In this document: in pieces, positions 1-34,262 of the stretch
How the letters are laid out: each line of letters starts with the position of its first letter
Position numbering within the stretch: position 1 is the stretch's first letter
DNA from: Ignavibacteria bacterium
GTDB lineage: Bacteria; Bacteroidota; Ignavibacteria; Tepidaquicellales; OLB5
NCBI GenBank assembly: GCA_025451455.1
Contig: JANWKI010000094.1
Span: 1-34,444, forward strand
Reading direction: 5' to 3'
DNA length: 34,444 nt
Translations under genes and position numbers: made by a program
The notes under the pieces: generated by a model
Told to the model about the DNA's origin: nothing
The model's database searches: none
The model's input: only the letters and a program-made list of their open reading frames with translations

Positions 1-1096
1 CTCTCGAGAGGGGAATACTGAATCTAATCTTTGTTACCGGATTGAAAGGGTTGGGATAATTCTGGAATAGTGAAAAATTATCCGGAATTTCTGAAGATAC
101 CGGCTGAATTCCAAGTACGCCGTTATAGACTGAAATTCCACCGTCAATTCTGGCTGCCCATAGCTTAGTACTTCCGTTCCTGCCCTTTGTAATGTGGTTA
201 TACCCGGAGTTTGTCGGGGCGGTATATTGTGCTATCCACGTATCTCCGTCATTATATGTATAATATATCTTATTGGAAAGAAACCTGACATACCACCAGT
301 AATTGCCAACACCTGTTATGCCTTTAATTATTTCCGGTCCTGAACTGTTGGGGGTAATGGTCCAGTTCATGCCGCTTGATTCAGTCCTGATGATATTCCT
401 GTCTGCACTGGAGTAACCGTGAACGGCATCATCAAACCAAATGGCTGATGGATATGCGTAACCTGTCCAGGTTACGTCCTGCAGTATCCAGTTTGCTCCG
501 TTATTTGAAGAATAATATATTCCCCTGTTCCTTGCTCCGAACCATACCTTGCTGCCGGAACAAAAAATGCCATTCTCAAAGCTCCATACGGAAGGGTCTG
601 TCTCAGGTATATACAGGCCGGTTGAGTCCCAGTTATTGCCGGCATTGGTTGTTTTCCACAAAGACCATCTGCCGCCGACCGGCCAGCCGACCATAAATCC
701 TTCATTATTTGGTTTTATCCATATCCCTGAAATGTATGCATCATCTCCCTGTGTGAAAACAAGTGACCATGTAGCGCCTGCGTTTGTTGTTTTATACACG
801 TAGGCATATAACACAGGGGTCCCATCATAGCAGGAGAAAATAGCCGTATTTGCATCGATAGCAAAAATGCAGGGCTGAAAGCCGTTTGGTTCGGGAATAT
901 TTGCACCTACATTTTCCCATGACGCACCTCCATTGGTCGTACGAAGGACATTATTAAACGAAGTAGATGCCCAAACAATATTATCATTAACGGCAGATAG
1001 AGAAAATATTGAAAAACTGATCCCTGAATTCTGTTCTGACCACTGTGAAAAAAGCGGGATTGAACAAATTAATATTAATATTACAATTTTTTTCAT
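1..1096 (-). CDS. T9SS type A sorting domain protein, probably beta-propeller/YCF48-like; 3' end truncated by the window edge
   Basis: Not in the ORF track (no stop in window). Minus-strand ATG at 1096 (MKKIVILILICSIPLFSQWSEQNSG...). In the same frame the end reads PVSSEIPDNFSLFQNYPNPFNPVTKIRFSIPLSR, a T9SS sorting-domain start. Confidence 0.8.
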   Translation of the reverse strand, partial: MKKIVILILICSIPLFSQWSEQNSGISFSIFSLSAVNDNIVWASTSFNNVLRTTNGGASWENVGANIPEPNGFQPCIFAIDANTAIFSCYDGTPVLYAYVYKTTNAGATWSLVFTQGDDAYISGIWIKPNNEGFMVGWPVGGRWSLWKTTNAGNNWDSTGLYIPETDPSVWSFENGIFCSGSKVWFGARNRGIYYSSNNGANWILQDVTWTGYAYPSAIWFDDAVHGYSSADRNIIRTESSGMNWTITPNSSGPEIIKGITGVGNYWWYVRFLSNKIYYTYNDGDTWIAQYTAPTNSGYNHITKGRNGSTKLWAARIDGGISVYNGVLGIQPVSSEIPDNFSLFQNYPNPFNPVTKIRFSIPLSR

Positions 1097-1097
1097 A

Positions 1098-2357
1098 TTA
1101 CTTCATTAATACCATTTTTTTAGTTTCGATGTAATCTTCCGAAATTATCTTATAAGAATACACACCGCTTGAGAAATTCGAAGCATCCCAGTCAGTTTCA
1201 TATGTGCCGGGCTTAAGCTCTTCGTTTACAAGTGTTGCGACTTCCCTGCCGAGCAGATCATAAATAATAAGCTTTACATCTGATAATCTTTTAATCTGAA
1301 ATCTTATAATCGTAACTGGGTTGAAGGGGTTGGGATAGTTTTGGGAAAGGGAAAATCTTTCCGGAATTTCTGAATTAATATTATTTATGCCAACAATATT
1401 ACCGCCTCCGTTCGTTGTTTTCAAAATTACTGGAACATTATTTGAACCTCCCGCTGCATAACCTGTGTTACTATCCACAAAGAAAATAGAGTTTAATCTA
1501 TTTGGAGTATTGGTTGCTAAAAAATTCCATGACTGTCCGATATCCGTAGTTTTAAGAATTTTACCCGAATCAGCAGTAACATAGCCGGTAGAATTGTTTG
1601 TAAAAAAGATCGAAGTAAAGGGACTGTTAATACTGAAATTATATCCTTGCCAGTTGATTCCACCATTTGTAGTTTTATATATTGTTGATATGCTATTGAC
1701 TCCACCGGTTACAAAACCTGTATTTACATCCAAAAACCAAACAGATCCCAAATTATTGGAAGATGGAGATACCAAACTAAACCAGGAGCCACCTAAATTG
1801 GTAGTTTTCATAATCCTGGGTCCATCACCAACTACATATCCAATTTCATTAACGAAATAGAAGTTTCTAAAATGACCATAATTTGAAGCATAAAATACAT
1901 TAAAGCAATCGATACCGCCATTAGTTGTCTTTTTTATTAATGTCCACACAGAAGAATGAAATCCACCAGATCCTCCAATAAAACCAGTGTTTTCATTAAC
2001 AAAATAAAGGGCATGGTAATAGGTAGGTCCATTCATTGCCGAGGTGTATTCTTGCCAAGTAACTCCTCCGGTTGTTGTTTTATTAATTTTTCCATCGGAA
2101 GTAACAACATATCCAGTTAAACTATTAAGAAAATAAGATGAGCTTAATGTATATGAAAATTCAACCAGAAATGTCCAATTATTTCCACCATTCGTAGTTT
2201 TTTGTATTTCGCGACCTGAAGTGATATAACCTGTATCGTTAAAAACAAATATTTTCCCCAGTGCAGTCTGAATTGCACTATTCTGAAAAACCCATTGCGA
2301 ATTACTAATACTTGAAATCAAAAGAAGGAATGTAATTAGAAAGAATATCTTTTTCAT
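1098..2357 (-). CDS. YCF48-like beta-propeller protein with C-terminal T9SS sorting domain
   Basis: Signal peptide; repeated KTTNGGxxW blades; C-terminal SQNYPNPFNPVTIIRF...LGREVATLVNEELKPGTYETDWDASNFSSGVYSYKI. Confidence 0.88.
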   Translation of the reverse strand: MKKIFFLITFLLLISSISNSQWVFQNSAIQTALGKIFVFNDTGYITSGREIQKTTNGGNNWTFLVEFSYTLSSSYFLNSLTGYVVTSDGKINKTTTGGVTWQEYTSAMNGPTYYHALYFVNENTGFIGGSGGFHSSVWTLIKKTTNGGIDCFNVFYASNYGHFRNFYFVNEIGYVVGDGPRIMKTTNLGGSWFSLVSPSSNNLGSVWFLDVNTGFVTGGVNSISTIYKTTNGGINWQGYNFSINSPFTSIFFTNNSTGYVTADSGKILKTTDIGQSWNFLATNTPNRLNSIFFVDSNTGYAAGGSNNVPVILKTTNGGGNIVGINNINSEIPERFSLSQNYPNPFNPVTIIRFQIKRLSDVKLIIYDLLGREVATLVNEELKPGTYETDWDASNFSSGVYSYKIISEDYIETKKMVLMK

Positions 2358-2376
2358 GACTTTAGTGTTAAAGTTT

Positions 2377-4518
2377 TTACTTCATCAAAATCATTTTTTT
2401 TGTTTCAATGTAGTTACCTGAAATTATCCTATAAAAATACACACCGCTGGAAAAATTCGAAGCATCCCAGTCTACCTCATACGTGCCGGGTTTAAGCTCT
2501 TCGTTTACCAGAGTTACGACTTCCCTGCCGAGAAGATCATATATAACCAGTTTCACGTTTGACGTTTTACCTTTCACATTTGCCGGAACATCAAACTTGA
2601 TCTTCGTTTGCGGATTGAAGGGGTTGGGGTAGTTTTGGGAGAGGAGAAATAATTCAGGCATTGTAGTATTTTGGTAATTAAGGTTAGTTATTATACCGCT
2701 GCCAAGTGTACTCAAAATATATCCTCTTTCACCAACTACCCAACATTTGTTGGTATCAATAGCAAATACTGCACGCAAATTACCATTTGTAAATAATTTC
2801 CATGTATCCCAGGTCAAACCTCCATTCGTTGTTCTTAATAAATTTCCAAACATGCATGCCATATATCCAGTTGATGAATTCACCATTTTCAAATCCATGC
2901 TCGCTTTCCAAGGACTTGATAATAACTGCCAATTCATTCCTAAATTAGTGCTTTTGTAAAAGTCCATTAAAGTTATTGCATAAAGATTGTTTTGACTATC
3001 CTTGCCTAAATCTTGCATTGAATTATCAAATGTTCTTTGCCAGCTTAAACCACCATTTGTTGTTCTGCCAATACCACCAACGCCAGCTATTATACCAGTG
3101 TCAGAATTAAGTAATTGTATGGCATACATCATATTATTTAAGAAACCTTCTACAATATTTATCTTATTCCAATTTATTCCACCATTATTTGTTTTTAATA
3201 TACATGACTCTCCCAGAATCCACCCGGTATTTTGGTTAATAAAGCTGAGGTGATACAAAACTACAGTTGTATTACTATTTTGAATACTCCAATTAATACC
3301 TGAGTTCGTGGTTTTGTAAATCAAACCATTATAACCGGGGACCCAACCTGTCAACTCATTAATAAAATATATATCATTTAAATGACTTGATGCATTTTCA
3401 AAAGTAAAGTACCAGTGTAAACCCTTATCTGTAGTTTTTAATATTGAGTTCGAAGAAATACAAAATCCGGTATTTTCGTTTGCGAAAAAAATAGATTCAA
3501 TTCTATTACTTGTTAGTGATTGGGACAACCATATCCAATTATTACCTTGATTCATTGTCTTTACAATAGTTCCATTGTTGCCGACAACTAAAGCATTATC
3601 ATCATATAAAACAGAAATACTATTACAGCTGGCAGTACTTTGTAATATCCAATTTGTACCGTTATTCGTTGTTTTAAATATACCAGAATTACCTGCAAAG
3701 AAACCAGTTTGACCATTAACAAATGCAATACTACTTACATCAAAATCTTGAGAGCTCCAGGAATTTCCTGAATCAGTGGTTTTCCATAATTTTGTTCCCC
3801 CAGCCCACCCGGTATTTTCATTAACAAAGAAAACAGTTTTTAAAGTCTGTGACATCGGCAACTGGAGTTGAGTTGTGAAACTCAAACCACCATTAGTTGT
3901 TTTGTAAATATAAAAACTACCATCGTATGGTGGTGTTGGGTAAACATATCTCCCTACAAACCAACCTGTATCAGGGTTGATGAAAAATATAGAATATATC
4001 GCTTTTAATGTTGTATTATGGACAAACCAATTTAATCCCCCATCCGTGGTCTTCAAAATAATGTTATTGTTATCGAAACCTCCATAACTACAGCAACTCC
4101 ACCCAGTATTAGCATTTATAAAAAAAATAGATTTAAATGAAGGGAAAGTATCTGTTGTAACACTATTCCATGTATTTCCTTCATCGGTAGTCCTCAATAT
4201 ACCATTAGTATTTGCCGGATAACCCGTTGCAATAAAACCGGTTAATTCATTCAAAAATTTTAAAGTGTACAATGGTTTAGCATAATTACCTGTGAAGCCT
4301 CCCAATGAATGAGTAATGGTCCAATTCAACCCTCCATTCGTACTTTTTATAAATGTACCTGCATCTCCTACAGCATACATTAGATTTAGATTAATATACT
4401 GACCAGAAAATAAATCATTTCCTTGCGGAAGCGGGTTCTGCCAAAACCACCCGCTTTGGGTATAACAATAATTTGTAATAAATATTAACAGCAGGGCAAT
4501 TGCAGTAAGTTTTTTCAT
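2377..4518 (-). CDS. YCF48-like beta-propeller protein with C-terminal T9SS sorting domain
   Basis: Many KTTNGGxxW / NxxTGW blades; C-terminal SQNYPNPFNPQTKIKF...GVYFYRIISGNYIETKKMILMK; signal peptide. Confidence 0.88.
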   Translation of the reverse strand: MKKLTAIALLLIFITNYCYTQSGWFWQNPLPQGNDLFSGQYINLNLMYAVGDAGTFIKSTNGGLNWTITHSLGGFTGNYAKPLYTLKFLNELTGFIATGYPANTNGILRTTDEGNTWNSVTTDTFPSFKSIFFINANTGWSCCSYGGFDNNNIILKTTDGGLNWFVHNTTLKAIYSIFFINPDTGWFVGRYVYPTPPYDGSFYIYKTTNGGLSFTTQLQLPMSQTLKTVFFVNENTGWAGGTKLWKTTDSGNSWSSQDFDVSSIAFVNGQTGFFAGNSGIFKTTNNGTNWILQSTASCNSISVLYDDNALVVGNNGTIVKTMNQGNNWIWLSQSLTSNRIESIFFANENTGFCISSNSILKTTDKGLHWYFTFENASSHLNDIYFINELTGWVPGYNGLIYKTTNSGINWSIQNSNTTVVLYHLSFINQNTGWILGESCILKTNNGGINWNKINIVEGFLNNMMYAIQLLNSDTGIIAGVGGIGRTTNGGLSWQRTFDNSMQDLGKDSQNNLYAITLMDFYKSTNLGMNWQLLSSPWKASMDLKMVNSSTGYMACMFGNLLRTTNGGLTWDTWKLFTNGNLRAVFAIDTNKCWVVGERGYILSTLGSGIITNLNYQNTTMPELFLLSQNYPNPFNPQTKIKFDVPANVKGKTSNVKLVIYDLLGREVVTLVNEELKPGTYEVDWDASNFSSGVYFYRIISGNYIETKKMILMK

Positions 4519-28856: not shown

Positions 28857-29327
28857 ATGGCTAAATCAGACGAGTTTAAGCAAATAGACAGTAAGATTCA
28901 AAAAATTCTGGCTAAATTAGACGAGATCAAACAGGTAGACAGCAGAATTCACGAAATTATGGATAATGTACCGCCTGCACTTTCAAACCTGAAAAAAAGA
29001 ATGTCTCTTAATACTGCTTATTTTAAGAATCCGGTTTTATCAGAGAGAAACTATAAGCTTTCTTTCAGCTTTTATTCAATTAAGTTTGAAATTACTGCTC
29101 ACATAAAACTAAACACTTCACCGGATTTAATTACACAGGGTGTTTTGAGAACCGGCGTTTATGATGAAACACAAATGAGGTATATTCATAATCCCGGTTA
29201 TGATATGACAATTGATATGCTTGGAAATATCGATACCGCCTTTAGTAATGAAAATTGGGCAGAACATTACTTTAACAAAGTCATTTGGGATTTTTACAAG
29301 AAAGCAGCGGAAATTGCGTTTAGTTAA
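28857..29327 (+). CDS. Hypothetical protein with N-terminal coiled-coil-like repeat
   Basis: 156-aa ORF; DEFKQIDSKIQKILAKL / DEIKQVDSRIHEIMDNV internal repeat; no family recognised. Confidence 0.6.
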   Translation: MAKSDEFKQIDSKIQKILAKLDEIKQVDSRIHEIMDNVPPALSNLKKRMSLNTAYFKNPVLSERNYKLSFSFYSIKFEITAHIKLNTSPDLITQGVLRTGVYDETQMRYIHNPGYDMTIDMLGNIDTAFSNENWAEHYFNKVIWDFYKKAAEIAFS

Positions 29328-29370: not shown

Positions 29371-30777
29371 CTACTTTATCAATACCATTTTCTTCGTATC
29401 CTTAAATCCACTGGTTTCCATTGAATAGAAATACAACCCTGAGGCATAATTCAATCCGTCAAATTTTACTTCATAGATTCCTGCTCTTTTAAATTCCTCA
29501 ATATTAAATATTTCTTTACCCAGTATATCAAATACCTTAATTGCTACAAAACCATCTTTTGGCAAATCAAATTTTATATTAGTATTTGGATTGAAGGGAT
29601 TAGGAAAATTTTGATATAAGGTGAAACCTGAGGGAATATAATTGCTTATTTGCGTGATGCCTATTACAGATACTGGCGGAAAGTTAAATAATGAATCTGT
29701 TCTGAGCGCTAAAAAAATAGCTTTCGAGCTAGTATCGCTAGCGGCAGCATAACCCATAAATATTAAATCAGAATTTGAGCAAATTTCTACTTCACTTAGA
29801 TCTATAAAATTTGAGAATTCGATTTTCTTAACTCTTAATATATTCCCGGTTGAATCACCAAGTATAAGTTTTGAATAAATAGAATCAGAATTCACAAAAT
29901 CGGTTGTCGCATATACAAATCTGTCTGGCGTAAGCAGTTTCATATCTTTAACTTGTTCTGATTGTTGTAATGAATCTATTGAAAATGTACCATATATATT
30001 TCCCAATATATCAATTTTAGTTACTGTCCTTTGACCGCTAATAATATAGTTTGAATTCGATTTATTGATAGATACACCACTAATATTAGACCCATATTGT
30101 CTGATCCATAAGCTATCACCATTTTCGTTTACCTTAACTATAAATAATTTTATAGGGTCATTCCAAAAATCTTTGCTTCTGCCAATAGCTATATAACCGC
30201 CATCAATTCCCTCTTCAATTGAATAAAGCAGCTTCTCAAAAGTTGAAGCATAAACTCTCTCCCATAATAAATTACCAAGTGAATCGAATTTTATTATTAT
30301 ACCATTATCGATATTATATCTTCCGCAAGCAATGAAATTATTATCAACAGTTCTTTTTATGTCAAATAATCTTCTTTCTGCATCAGTTAAAACCTTGTTA
30401 ATTATAGTATCACCATTTGCGTTAAATTTCAAGAATCTTGCAGCATCACCTGTTGCAACACAGCCTCCTCCAGAAGTTGGAGCAACCGAGTAAGCATATC
30501 CTGTCCCATTCATGCCTCCAATCGCTTTTGACCATATAACGTATCCGTTAGGGTCAATTTTTTTTACGTAAAAATTCGGGAAGTAATTCCAACCTGTTGC
30601 CCCACCAGCCAAAAAGAAATTCCCATCAGTTGAGGCACAAATGCCATAGCCATAGTCATCCAAATCGTAAGGTCCAGGATACAGCCATTGCCATTGAATT
30701 GAAGGCTGGCTAATCACGTCAAACGTAAAAAGTGAAAAGTGAAAAGTTAAGAAAGATATGTATAGTAATTTCTTCAA
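29371..30777 (-). CDS. T9SS type A sorting domain protein with propeller-like repeats
   Basis: Signal peptide; FTLYQNFPNPFNPNTNIKFDLPKDGFVAIKVFDILGKEI...GLYFYSMETSGFKDTKKMVLIK. Confidence 0.87.
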   Translation of the reverse strand: MKKLLYISFLTFHFSLFTFDVISQPSIQWQWLYPGPYDLDDYGYGICASTDGNFFLAGGATGWNYFPNFYVKKIDPNGYVIWSKAIGGMNGTGYAYSVAPTSGGGCVATGDAARFLKFNANGDTIINKVLTDAERRLFDIKRTVDNNFIACGRYNIDNGIIIKFDSLGNLLWERVYASTFEKLLYSIEEGIDGGYIAIGRSKDFWNDPIKLFIVKVNENGDSLWIRQYGSNISGVSINKSNSNYIISGQRTVTKIDILGNIYGTFSIDSLQQSEQVKDMKLLTPDRFVYATTDFVNSDSIYSKLILGDSTGNILRVKKIEFSNFIDLSEVEICSNSDLIFMGYAAASDTSSKAIFLALRTDSLFNFPPVSVIGITQISNYIPSGFTLYQNFPNPFNPNTNIKFDLPKDGFVAIKVFDILGKEIFNIEEFKRAGIYEVKFDGLNYASGLYFYSMETSGFKDTKKMVLIK

Positions 30778-30926: not shown

Positions 30927-30948
30927 GTGTCAGGTAAATACCTGACAC
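30927..30948. repeat. Perfect hairpin GTGTCAGGTA-AA-TACCTGACAC
   Basis: 10-bp perfect arms, 2-nt spacer, intergenic. Confidence 0.75.
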
Positions 30949-30977: not shown

Positions 30978-31026
30978 TGTCGTTGGTGACCACGTCAGAG
31001 CCGGGCAGGAAACACCAACGACGGCG
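30978..31026. repeat. GTTGGTG-family palindromic repeat (reference copy)
   Basis: CGTTGGTG...CACCAACG arms around ACCACGTCAGAGCCGGGCAGGAAA; core shared in inverse orientation with 18831..18908. Confidence 0.78.
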
Positions 31027-31128
31027 GTAAAACTATGGTTCTGCCTGTTAACATATTTCCATTTCACGTTCGGGAATATTTCTATATATTTGACAAAAAT
31101 CACAGTAAAAATCCCGGGAAATCCATTC

Positions 31129-32808
31129 ATGAAATCATTGAAATTATTAATAATAGCGTTTTTTTGCCTTTTCTTGGCATCCTGCAGCAAAAATCCGGAA
31201 GTAATATACATTAACGGAAAAATATACACGCTCGATAAGAACAACACAATTGTTGAAGCAATTGCAGTGCATGAAGGCAGGATACTTGCCCTTGGAAAGT
31301 CCGGTGAGCTTACCGAAAAGTACAAGGATGCAAAAGTAATTGACCTCAAAGGCAAAACTGTCGTTCCCGGATTCATTGACGCCGAGGCGAACTTGATGGA
31401 ATTTTCAAAACAGTTAAGCCTGCTTGATCTGAGGAACGCAAAGTCAGTTGATGAAATACTTAGCATAGTTTCCGAAAGAGTCAAAACTTCCAAACCCGAT
31501 GAATGGATAGGCGGATTCGGCTGGGATGAACTGAAGATTCCTGAGAAAGATATGGAAAGAATGAATCATACTTTGCTGGATAAGATATCCTCGGGCCAGT
31601 TTATTTACCTCGTCAATGCCTTAGGAAATACTACATGGGTGAATAAGAAAGTACTGGACTTAACCAAGGTGAATAAGGATACACCGGACCCTGAAAACGG
31701 AGCGATCGGCTTTGATGACAATAATAATCCCACAGGCTTGTTTTATGAATCAGCCCAGGCAATTGTTATCAGTATCCTCCCTCAGCCCTCTGAGCAGGAA
31801 GTTATCAGGAATATTGAACGGGGCATTAACGAACTTTTCAAATACGGAATAACAGAAATAAATGATGCAAATATTACCGAGCAGGGGCTTAATGTTTACA
31901 AAAAGATGGTAGATGATAATAAATTCCCTATAAGGCTATATGCAATGATACCCGGCAAAGGTCCCTTGTTTGAAAAATATATTTCAAGCGGTCCGGAAAA
32001 CTACAAAGACAGGATAAATGTAAAATGCGTAAGCCTTGAATACGACGGGTATTTCGAATCTCAGGATGCTGCAATGGAAAACGATTACAACGCAGACCCC
32101 AAGAGAATGACACCGTTTAATGATGAGTTTGATATTAAGGAAATGACAAAGAAAGCTTACGAAAAAGATTTCCAGATATCGGTAAAGACAGTTGGTGACA
32201 GAGCCGTTACCCTGACGCTTAATGCAATAGAATCGGTGACAAAGGAAGTGAAGCCAAAAGCAGGCAGAACAAGGCTTGAGTATCTTGAATTTGTGAAACA
32301 AGCAGATATGCAGAGGATAAAGCAGCTTGAGATCATTCCCTCCATAAGGCCTGAAGTTACACTGGCTGATAAAATTGCATTACCCGAATTGATAAAACCT
32401 GAAAACGGCCAGAATCTGGGGCTTTGGAACACTCTCTACAATCAGAACAATTTTGTTATTTCAGGAACTGATTTCCCGTATCACACAATTAACCCGCTTG
32501 TGCTGATGTACTATCTTTCCACCGGGCTCTCGCTGGATACAGCTTTCAACAGGATATCAAACAATGCATCCCAGAAAATAAGTTTGCTTGAGGCGCTGAA
32601 GTCATTCACGGTTTACGCGGCATATGCTTCATTTTGCGATGATGTTAAGGGAACACTGGAAAAGGACAAGTTTGCCGATATGGTTGTTATTTCAAATGAT
32701 ATTCTTTCTTCAGACCCCGCTGTACTTCTTAAGACCCGTGTATTAATGACAATAATAAGGGGCGAGGTTTTATATGAAAATAAAACTCCCGCTGCCTTAA
32801 ATTATTAA
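31129..32808 (+). CDS. Amidohydrolase_3/YtcJ-like lipoprotein, likely catalytically degenerate
   Basis: Lipobox FLASCSKNP; INGKIYTLDKNNTIVEAIAVHEGRILALG, KGKTVVPGFIDAE, NNPTGLFYESA, VGDRAV, SGTDFPYHTINPL; metal His residues replaced. Confidence 0.88.
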   Translation: MKSLKLLIIAFFCLFLASCSKNPEVIYINGKIYTLDKNNTIVEAIAVHEGRILALGKSGELTEKYKDAKVIDLKGKTVVPGFIDAEANLMEFSKQLSLLDLRNAKSVDEILSIVSERVKTSKPDEWIGGFGWDELKIPEKDMERMNHTLLDKISSGQFIYLVNALGNTTWVNKKVLDLTKVNKDTPDPENGAIGFDDNNNPTGLFYESAQAIVISILPQPSEQEVIRNIERGINELFKYGITEINDANITEQGLNVYKKMVDDNKFPIRLYAMIPGKGPLFEKYISSGPENYKDRINVKCVSLEYDGYFESQDAAMENDYNADPKRMTPFNDEFDIKEMTKKAYEKDFQISVKTVGDRAVTLTLNAIESVTKEVKPKAGRTRLEYLEFVKQADMQRIKQLEIIPSIRPEVTLADKIALPELIKPENGQNLGLWNTLYNQNNFVISGTDFPYHTINPLVLMYYLSTGLSLDTAFNRISNNASQKISLLEALKSFTVYAAYASFCDDVKGTLEKDKFADMVVISNDILSSDPAVLLKTRVLMTIIRGEVLYENKTPAALNY

Positions 32809-33677
32809 TGGCGGAAGTTTCGAAAATTTGGCGTATAATAGATTTGCTGAAGATTACCGAAGGACTGCTCAAAGAAAAAGGCATTTCAAGCCCGAGGCTA
32901 AATGCAGAACTTCTCTTAAGTGATACTCTGAATACCAATAGAATGGACCTTTATCTGAATTTTGAAAAACCGCTTCAGGAAAGTGAGCTTACAGAATTCA
33001 GGGGAAAGATCAAAAGACGGCTAAGCAGAGAACCTTTACAGTATGTAACCGGCAAATGCGGTTTTTACGGCATGGAATTTAAGGTAGGCCCCTCTGTGTT
33101 AATACCCCGCCCTGAAACAGAAACCCTGATCGATGTTTCGCTGGAAAATATTAGAGCAAGAGAACTTGATAATCCAAAGATCCTTGAAATAGGAACAGGT
33201 TCCGGATGTATATCGATAGCAATTGCAGGTAAGATAAACTGCAGAATAGATTCAATTGATACAAGCAATGATGCTCTGAAAATTGCAGAAGAAAATTCGG
33301 GAACAAACAATACTTCTTCAAAAATAAATTTTCAGCTTAAGGATATATTCAGGGACGTCATGGATTTTTCAGGATATGATATAGTAATAAGCAATCCGCC
33401 TTACATAGCTTTTAATGAACTGGAAACTTTGGAGCCTGAAGTAAGGGATTTTGAGCCGCTTGCCGCACTGACTGATAATGAAGACGGGCTGAAGTTTTAC
33501 AGAAGAATTTTTGAGCTTGCTACAAAAACTGACGGAAAGACCAGTGTATTGCTTGAAATCGGAGACGGTAAAAGAGCAAACGTTGAAAATCTCGCTATTA
33601 ATATGGGGATAACAAACTACTGTTTTTACAAAGATCTGCTGAATATTGACCGCGTAATTTACGCCGAAATTTGGTAG
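32808..33677 (+). CDS. prmC: Peptide chain release factor N5-glutamine methyltransferase PrmC/HemK
   Basis: REPLQYVTGKCGFYGMEFKVGPSVLIPRPETETL, ILEIGTGSGCISIAIA, VISNPPYI. Confidence 0.95.
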   Translation: MAEVSKIWRIIDLLKITEGLLKEKGISSPRLNAELLLSDTLNTNRMDLYLNFEKPLQESELTEFRGKIKRRLSREPLQYVTGKCGFYGMEFKVGPSVLIPRPETETLIDVSLENIRARELDNPKILEIGTGSGCISIAIAGKINCRIDSIDTSNDALKIAEENSGTNNTSSKINFQLKDIFRDVMDFSGYDIVISNPPYIAFNELETLEPEVRDFEPLAALTDNEDGLKFYRRIFELATKTDGKTSVLLEIGDGKRANVENLAINMGITNYCFYKDLLNIDRVIYAEIW

Positions 33678-33702
33678 TGGGGATTTTCATTTCTCAAAAA
33701 AA

Positions 33703-33773
33703 TGTCATTCTGAACTTGTTTCAGAATCTTTGAGAATTTAGACAAAAGACCCTGAAATAAATTCAGGGTGACA
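33703..33773. repeat. Composite palindromic element TGTCATTCTGAA...TTCAGGGTGACA
   Basis: Imperfect terminal inverted repeats plus inner hairpins TTCTGAACTTGTTTCAGAA and CCCTGAAATAAATTCAGGG. Confidence 0.75.
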
Positions 33774-33806
33774 ATTGAAGAAGAAAAAATTTGATGTAAC
33801 ATTATT

Positions 33807-34262
33807 ATGATAGCTTTAATACAAAGAGTACTGGAATCCAAAGTAACAGTTGATGCTGAACTAATTGATATGATAGGAGGCGGGCTGCTGGTACTGCTTG
33901 GTGTAAGGCAGGAAGATACGGTTAGTGACGCTAAATATCTTGCTGCTAAAACCGCGAACCTCAGGATATTTTCTGATGATGAGGGAAAGATGAATTTATC
34001 ACTTCTGGATAACGGGCTTGAAGCACTTGTGGTCTCACAGTTCACTCTGCATGCTGATACAAGGCACGGCAACAGACCAAGCTTTACGGAAGCGGCTGAA
34101 CCGGAGCGTGCTAACGAGCTTTATGAAGAGTATATACAGGAAATGAAAGAGCTCATCGGGCGTGATAAAGTGCACAAAGGAACATTTGGCGCCATGATGA
34201 AAGTAAAGCTTGTTAATGACGGCCCGGTAACAATAATACTCAGAAGCAAAAACGATCACTGA
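33807..34262 (+). CDS. dtd: D-aminoacyl-tRNA deacylase
   Basis: MIALIQRVLESKVTVDAE, GGGLLVLLGV, VVSQFTLHADTRHGNRPSFTEAA. Confidence 0.95.
   Translation: MIALIQRVLESKVTVDAELIDMIGGGLLVLLGVRQEDTVSDAKYLAAKTANLRIFSDDEGKMNLSLLDNGLEALVVSQFTLHADTRHGNRPSFTEAAEPERANELYEEYIQEMKELIGRDKVHKGTFGAMMKVKLVNDGPVTIILRSKNDH

Follow-up and report, generated by a model that had tools for sequence, protein, structure and literature searches.

Can a protein with the full-length profile of a metal-dependent hydrolase still be an enzyme once the residues that hold its metals have been replaced, and if not, for what is it kept? The question is raised by a gene, here called psAH, in a stretch of 34,444 nucleotides from an Ignavibacteria bacterium (contig JANWKI010000094.1; the window). 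Our preferred reading, to which we assign a probability of roughly 0.78, is that psAH is a vertically inherited, metal-free pseudo-amidohydrolase that was fixed ancestrally and has been kept for binding or scaffolding in the envelope. The gene and its downstream neighbours are arranged as follows.

31129-32808, + strand: psAH, pseudo-amidohydrolase lipoprotein gene (559 aa; intact ORF, PF07969, AlphaFold2, Foldseek)
31129-31185, + strand: psAH lipoprotein signal peptide with lipobox L16-A-S-C19 (Cys19 aligned in 40/40 orthologues)
32808-33677, + strand: prmC, release-factor glutamine methyltransferase (PF17827, PrmC_N; its start overlaps the psAH stop, TAATG)
33807-34262, + strand: dtd, D-aminoacyl-tRNA deacylase (PF02580, 190 bits; position conserved)

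The psAH reading frame runs uninterrupted from an ATG at 31129 to a stop codon at 32806-32808. A TTG is present in frame at 31090, 5' of this ATG, and the ATG is favoured because it yields a lipoprotein signal. An N-terminal signal followed by LASC19, read from the lipobox motif and the alignment, marks psAH as a bacterial lipoprotein, and the psAH clade is predicted to be uniformly lipoprotein. The initial annotation had described an intact frame with a lipobox encoding an Amidohydro_3/YtcJ-like lipoprotein. Both points were confirmed, the latter by a match over the entire Pfam Amidohydro_3 profile (PF07969; 237.9 bits, cut-off 29.7, profile positions 1-472 of 472), which was also matched by 36/36 psAH clade members. 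A search against NCBIfam gave weak N-terminal matches only, far below cut-off. By sequence, its closest relatives of known structure are 3igh and 3icj, both metal-dependent hydrolases from archaea whose function is unknown. The same two structures were the top Foldseek matches (TM-score by target 0.86-0.87) of an AlphaFold2 model of psAH that was built from an input alignment of window and locus proteins (pLDDT 92.7, pTM 0.87) and that has the amidohydrolase TIM-barrel fold. By descent and fold, psAH is an Amidohydro_3 protein.

The defining feature of the family is its metal site, which comprises an HxH motif, a carboxylated Lys, two His and an Asp. In the Amidohydro_3 enzyme BwBSH1 the six ligands are H110, H112, carboxylated K373, H441, H474 and D583, and alanine at any single one of them abolishes activity (PMC13081902). 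Comparison of 40 psAH clade sequences with 38 canonical relatives gave the following picture of the corresponding positions in psAH.

31384-31392, + strand: former HxH metal site, E86-A-N88 (clade E31/D7/N2 and S26/N14; canonical H38 and H38)
31615-31629, + strand: former substrate-side segment RxDGH, N163...N167 (clade N37/40 at 163, variable at 167; canonical R38 and H38)
32032-32040, + strand: former carboxylated-Lys ligand S302 and new acidic E304 (clade S/T at 302 and D/E 40/40 at 304; canonical K38 and Y/F)
32185-32187, + strand: K353, replacing the next metal His, that of HAIGDRA (K in 40/40 clade sequences; H in 38/38 canonical sequences)
32281-32289, + strand: Y385, replacing the following metal His, with E387 (clade Y26/H7/other and E36; canonical H38 and Q38)
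32347-32349, + strand: R407, a charged residue specific to the clade (R in 36/40; Q in 38/38 canonical sequences)
32470-32472, + strand: D448, the last ligand in the window psAH (clade D30/N5/G3/E2; canonical D38)

Five of the six ligands are replaced in the window psAH and D448 is the sole one left. The motif readings of the initial annotation were all right: D84-A-E86-A-N88 at 31378-31392, A-L-G-N167-T-T-W-V-N at 31618-31644, K353, Y385 and D448. Its statement that all metal-binding His are replaced also stands. Its ligand list was incomplete, having missed S302 (32032-32034), which aligns with the Lys of VK(L/M)(Y/F)xDG that is carboxylated in the family. Position 302 is S28/T8/other in the clade versus K38 in canonical relatives, position 304 is D28/E12 versus Y35/F3, and position 312 is Q35 versus R38. 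The claim that the Asp of S(G/S)TD remains was correct for the window protein and did not extend across the clade, where N, G or E takes its place in ten members. Conservation of the ExN/K/Y residues, raised as a check in the initial annotation, was borne out for Lys353 and for E/D86 (38/40) and not for Tyr385, which is not fixed. As far as the sequence tells, psAH is therefore not a metal-dependent amidohydrolase by the defining feature of the family.

A site rebuilt from other residues would leave psAH a metal-dependent hydrolase after all, and the retention of D448 in the window protein and in 30/40 orthologues, together with H385 in 7/40, could be cited in its favour. Among the 40 clade sequences, however, no His is present in more than 55% of members, so that the initial annotation's concern that another His might occupy the metal site did not materialise, and the lipobox Cys19 is the sole conserved Cys. 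A displaced His/Cys metal site is argued against by these two observations. With five of six ligands lost, and D448 itself N or G in several orthologues, we consider a rearranged metal site highly unlikely. Weak binding of a single metal by D448 and, in seven members, H385 is just conceivable from the residues present.

We then considered how far the altered protein extends, in searches covering 59 related genomes, the whole order (44 genomes), the class (391) and the phylum (396). psAH was present in 41/44 genomes of the order. With the clade profile, scores of about 736-900 bits were obtained for near-complete copies, and of 668 bits (G032) and 574 bits (second copy in G006) for two fragments. 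Outside the order the top clade-profile score in the class was 504 bits; occurrence of psAH beyond the order was rejected on this score gap and because the best-scoring outside relatives all read as canonical. A copy from the genus of the window (OLB5; L010, placed by NCBI in Candidatus Tepidaquicellales, class Ignavibacteria) is 82% identical. Ligand loss was common to 40/40 clade sequences examined, all from separate assemblies, whereas the nearest relatives outside the order kept all six ligands in 38/38 (a set that holds one gene twice, L062 = L124). Chance and sequencing error are excluded by this comparison. Close orthologues with canonical ligands, which the initial annotation had named as a sign of local error or decay, were not found among the 40, nor was any canonical copy found at the psAH locus inside the order. 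True loss of psAH in the three remaining genomes was not supported, since in none of them does an assembled locus span the gene: a contig end truncates prmC in two (G001, G009), and in G011 a good prmC match was likewise not found.

In a tree from which the six ligand columns had been left out, computed by a quick search with no bootstrap, the 40 altered proteins formed one clade with an SH-aLRT value of 100 and a stem length of 1.04, nested among canonical enzymes. The metal site was thus lost a single time, in the common ancestor of an Ignavibacteria order. The cytosolic YtcJ paralogues that the order itself possesses (L074, L081, L082 and others) were rejected as the source of psAH, since they form a distant canonical group in the tree. 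The canonical YtcJ-type paralogue in the window's own genome (L079, contig C54, 2001-3560) is split by an in-frame stop and is possibly a pseudogene or an assembly error; several copies from the same genus read through without a stop.

Low dN/dS had been proposed as a check on function, and this is what was obtained by the Nei-Gojobori method: 0.03-0.075 for near pairs with dS of 0.6-1.1, and no more than 0.075 among the listed pairs with finite dS, several dS values being saturated. Wherever both genes gave a value, psAH had a lower dN/dS than prmC, L024/L025 being the one exception. The stop-start overlap of psAH and prmC and the conserved gene order would fit translational coupling, and psAH might on that account be decaying, or be retained only for translation of prmC from the same message. 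This is scarcely credible given the purifying selection on the psAH protein itself, the full-length ORFs in fully assembled copies and the invariance of Lys353 and Cys19. Purifying selection, together with 40 orthologues sharing the loss, likewise upholds the initial annotation in ranking decay below repurposing. Loss of catalytic residues, purifying selection and monophyly are thus combined in psAH, as is characteristic of a conserved pseudoenzyme.

Lys353, Cys19 and an acidic residue at 304 are invariant in the clade (40/40), and K353 is the last residue of a predicted strand (349-353). Read from the alignment, the replacements at 86, 304, 353, 387 and 407 are a coordinated switch to charged residues around the invariant Lys353, not a random scatter. 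The C-terminal ends of the barrel strands, positions taken approximately from predicted secondary structure, have a mean entropy of 1.15 in the psAH clade, against 1.51 for random positions (permutation p 0.0005) and 0.72 for the canonical enzymes; they are thus more conserved than the former and less than the latter, the N-terminal ends being also fairly conserved (1.27). Because the strand C-terminal ends stay conserved, a pocket or interface of psAH may be read as still in use.

One use of such a pocket would be new, metal-independent catalysis in which Lys353 acts together with D/E304 and E/D86, by way of a Schiff base or of general acid/base chemistry, for instance. An invariant Lys at a barrel-strand end, an invariant acidic partner and conserved pocket-rim residues would all suit this proposal, but structural replacement of the metal charge explains the pattern equally. 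We judge a new Lys353 activity unlikely because the pocket positions 167, 302, 385 and 448 differ among orthologues. A one-time conversion in the order's ancestor to a metal-free envelope lipoprotein whose new function, as a ligand receptor or metal-independent catalyst, centres on the invariant Lys353 that supplanted a metal His, is somewhat less doubtful and can be put forward tentatively.

The preferred reading of a retained, metal-free pseudo-amidohydrolase suggests the following course of events. The ancestor would have been a hydrolase of the Amidohydro_3 (YtcJ) type, anchored in the membrane and probably periplasmic, with its gene upstream of prmC-dtd. The two-metal site and a number of residues on the substrate side were lost in the order's ancestor, and throughout the order psAH is a lipoprotein under strong purifying selection. 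In place of the metals, the mouth of the barrel may hold a fixed network of charges, with E/D86, D/E304 and E387 around Lys353 and R407, the Lys353 ammonium standing in for the metal charge. By homology to the BwBSH1 mutants, amide hydrolysis by the family mechanism is probably absent in psAH. Its role may instead lie in the envelope, where it would bind either another protein or a small ligand, much as pseudo-dihydroorotase acts as a partner in assembly. The repurposed binding or scaffold role favoured by the initial annotation is supported as an interpretation, neither of the outcomes that the annotation had named as refuting having occurred; the role itself we infer.

Among known systems, psAH is closest to the Amidohydro_3/YtcJ-like hydrolases (PF07969, COG1574; 3igh, 3icj; BwBSH1), with which it shares the full-length profile, the fold and clear common descent, and whose canonical members occupy its locus in sister families. 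Unlike them, it is lipid-anchored and fixed order-wide with five of six ligands and several substrate-side residues replaced. The pseudo-dihydroorotase (pDHO) of Pseudomonas ATCase is, like psAH, an amidohydrolase-superfamily barrel that is retained while inactive (PMC7053772), inactivity being predicted in the case of psAH. pDHO differs in belonging to another subfamily and in working with aspartate transcarbamoylase, whereas psAH is an envelope lipoprotein. Dihydroorotase models matched a short N-terminal stretch of psAH, far below cut-off, giving no sign of dihydroorotase ancestry, and no ATCase gene was recognised among the neighbouring ORFs. The CRMP/dihydropyrimidinase-like pseudoenzymes also combine an amidohydrolase fold and a lost catalytic metal site with a non-enzymatic role; they are eukaryotic, cytosolic and of the hydantoinase branch. 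Our literature search found no pseudo-YtcJ or other Amidohydro_3/YtcJ pseudoenzyme, no Ignavibacteria pseudo-amidohydrolase and no amidohydrolase-superfamily pseudoenzyme that is an envelope lipoprotein. Pseudoenzymes of the superfamily are already known from pseudo-dihydroorotase; psAH would be an unusually clean case, with a single origin, order-wide fixation, canonical same-locus relatives with a transporter and a charge-swapped pocket, and hence a tractable system for the change from a metalloenzyme to a metal-free protein. It also calls for caution in annotation, as a full-length Pfam match at eight times the cut-off would label a clade of probably inactive proteins as hydrolases.

The order psAH-prmC-dtd was found in all pseudo loci with enough flank, the stop and start of successive genes often being adjacent or overlapping. 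In two families of the class (f4 and f13) a canonical amidohydrolase gene precedes prmC-dtd on the same strand, and a gene for an MFS transporter, together with one or two small genes, usually intervenes; in a third (f17, L123) the canonical gene likewise lies just upstream of prmC-dtd. Each of the six control genomes from f4/f13 has the transporter (E 1e-77 or better), which was found in 0/43 of the order's genomes at 1e-15. Most canonical relatives carry a hydrophobic anchor or signal at the N-terminus, and a lipobox is present in 7/38 rows. The simplest history is that the gene descended in place while the transporter and the metal site were lost. PrmC and Dtd have cytoplasmic housekeeping functions and are for that reason unlikely partners of psAH; the neighbours give no clue to an envelope partner.

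Several further features of these loci were recorded. In family f4 (L061 6569-9030, L104 2307-3553, L105, L106), the interval between the canonical amidohydrolase and prmC encodes a conserved receiver protein resembling response regulators and a small protein that no Pfam model matches. In family f34, from another class of the phylum (L116 5904-8095, L118 5455-7631), a canonical amidohydrolase gene is the immediate neighbour of dtd, and the pairing of these two genes may therefore predate the class. In most relatives prmC runs up to dtd or overlaps it; in the window the two are separated by 129 bases (33678-33806) containing two short inverted repeats (33707-33727, 33749-33769) that resemble a REP-like insertion. 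Two perfect 10-nt inverted repeats (30927-30948, 30979-31022) lie in the 350-base region upstream of psAH, and an Rfam search of the window gave no match. Farther upstream are a 156-aa ORF without a Pfam match (28857-29327) and two regions (1-4518 and 29371-30777) coding for large secreted proteins that bear sorting-domain sequences at the C-terminus; the protein at 29371-30777 matches Por_Secre_tail, which points to type IX secretion.
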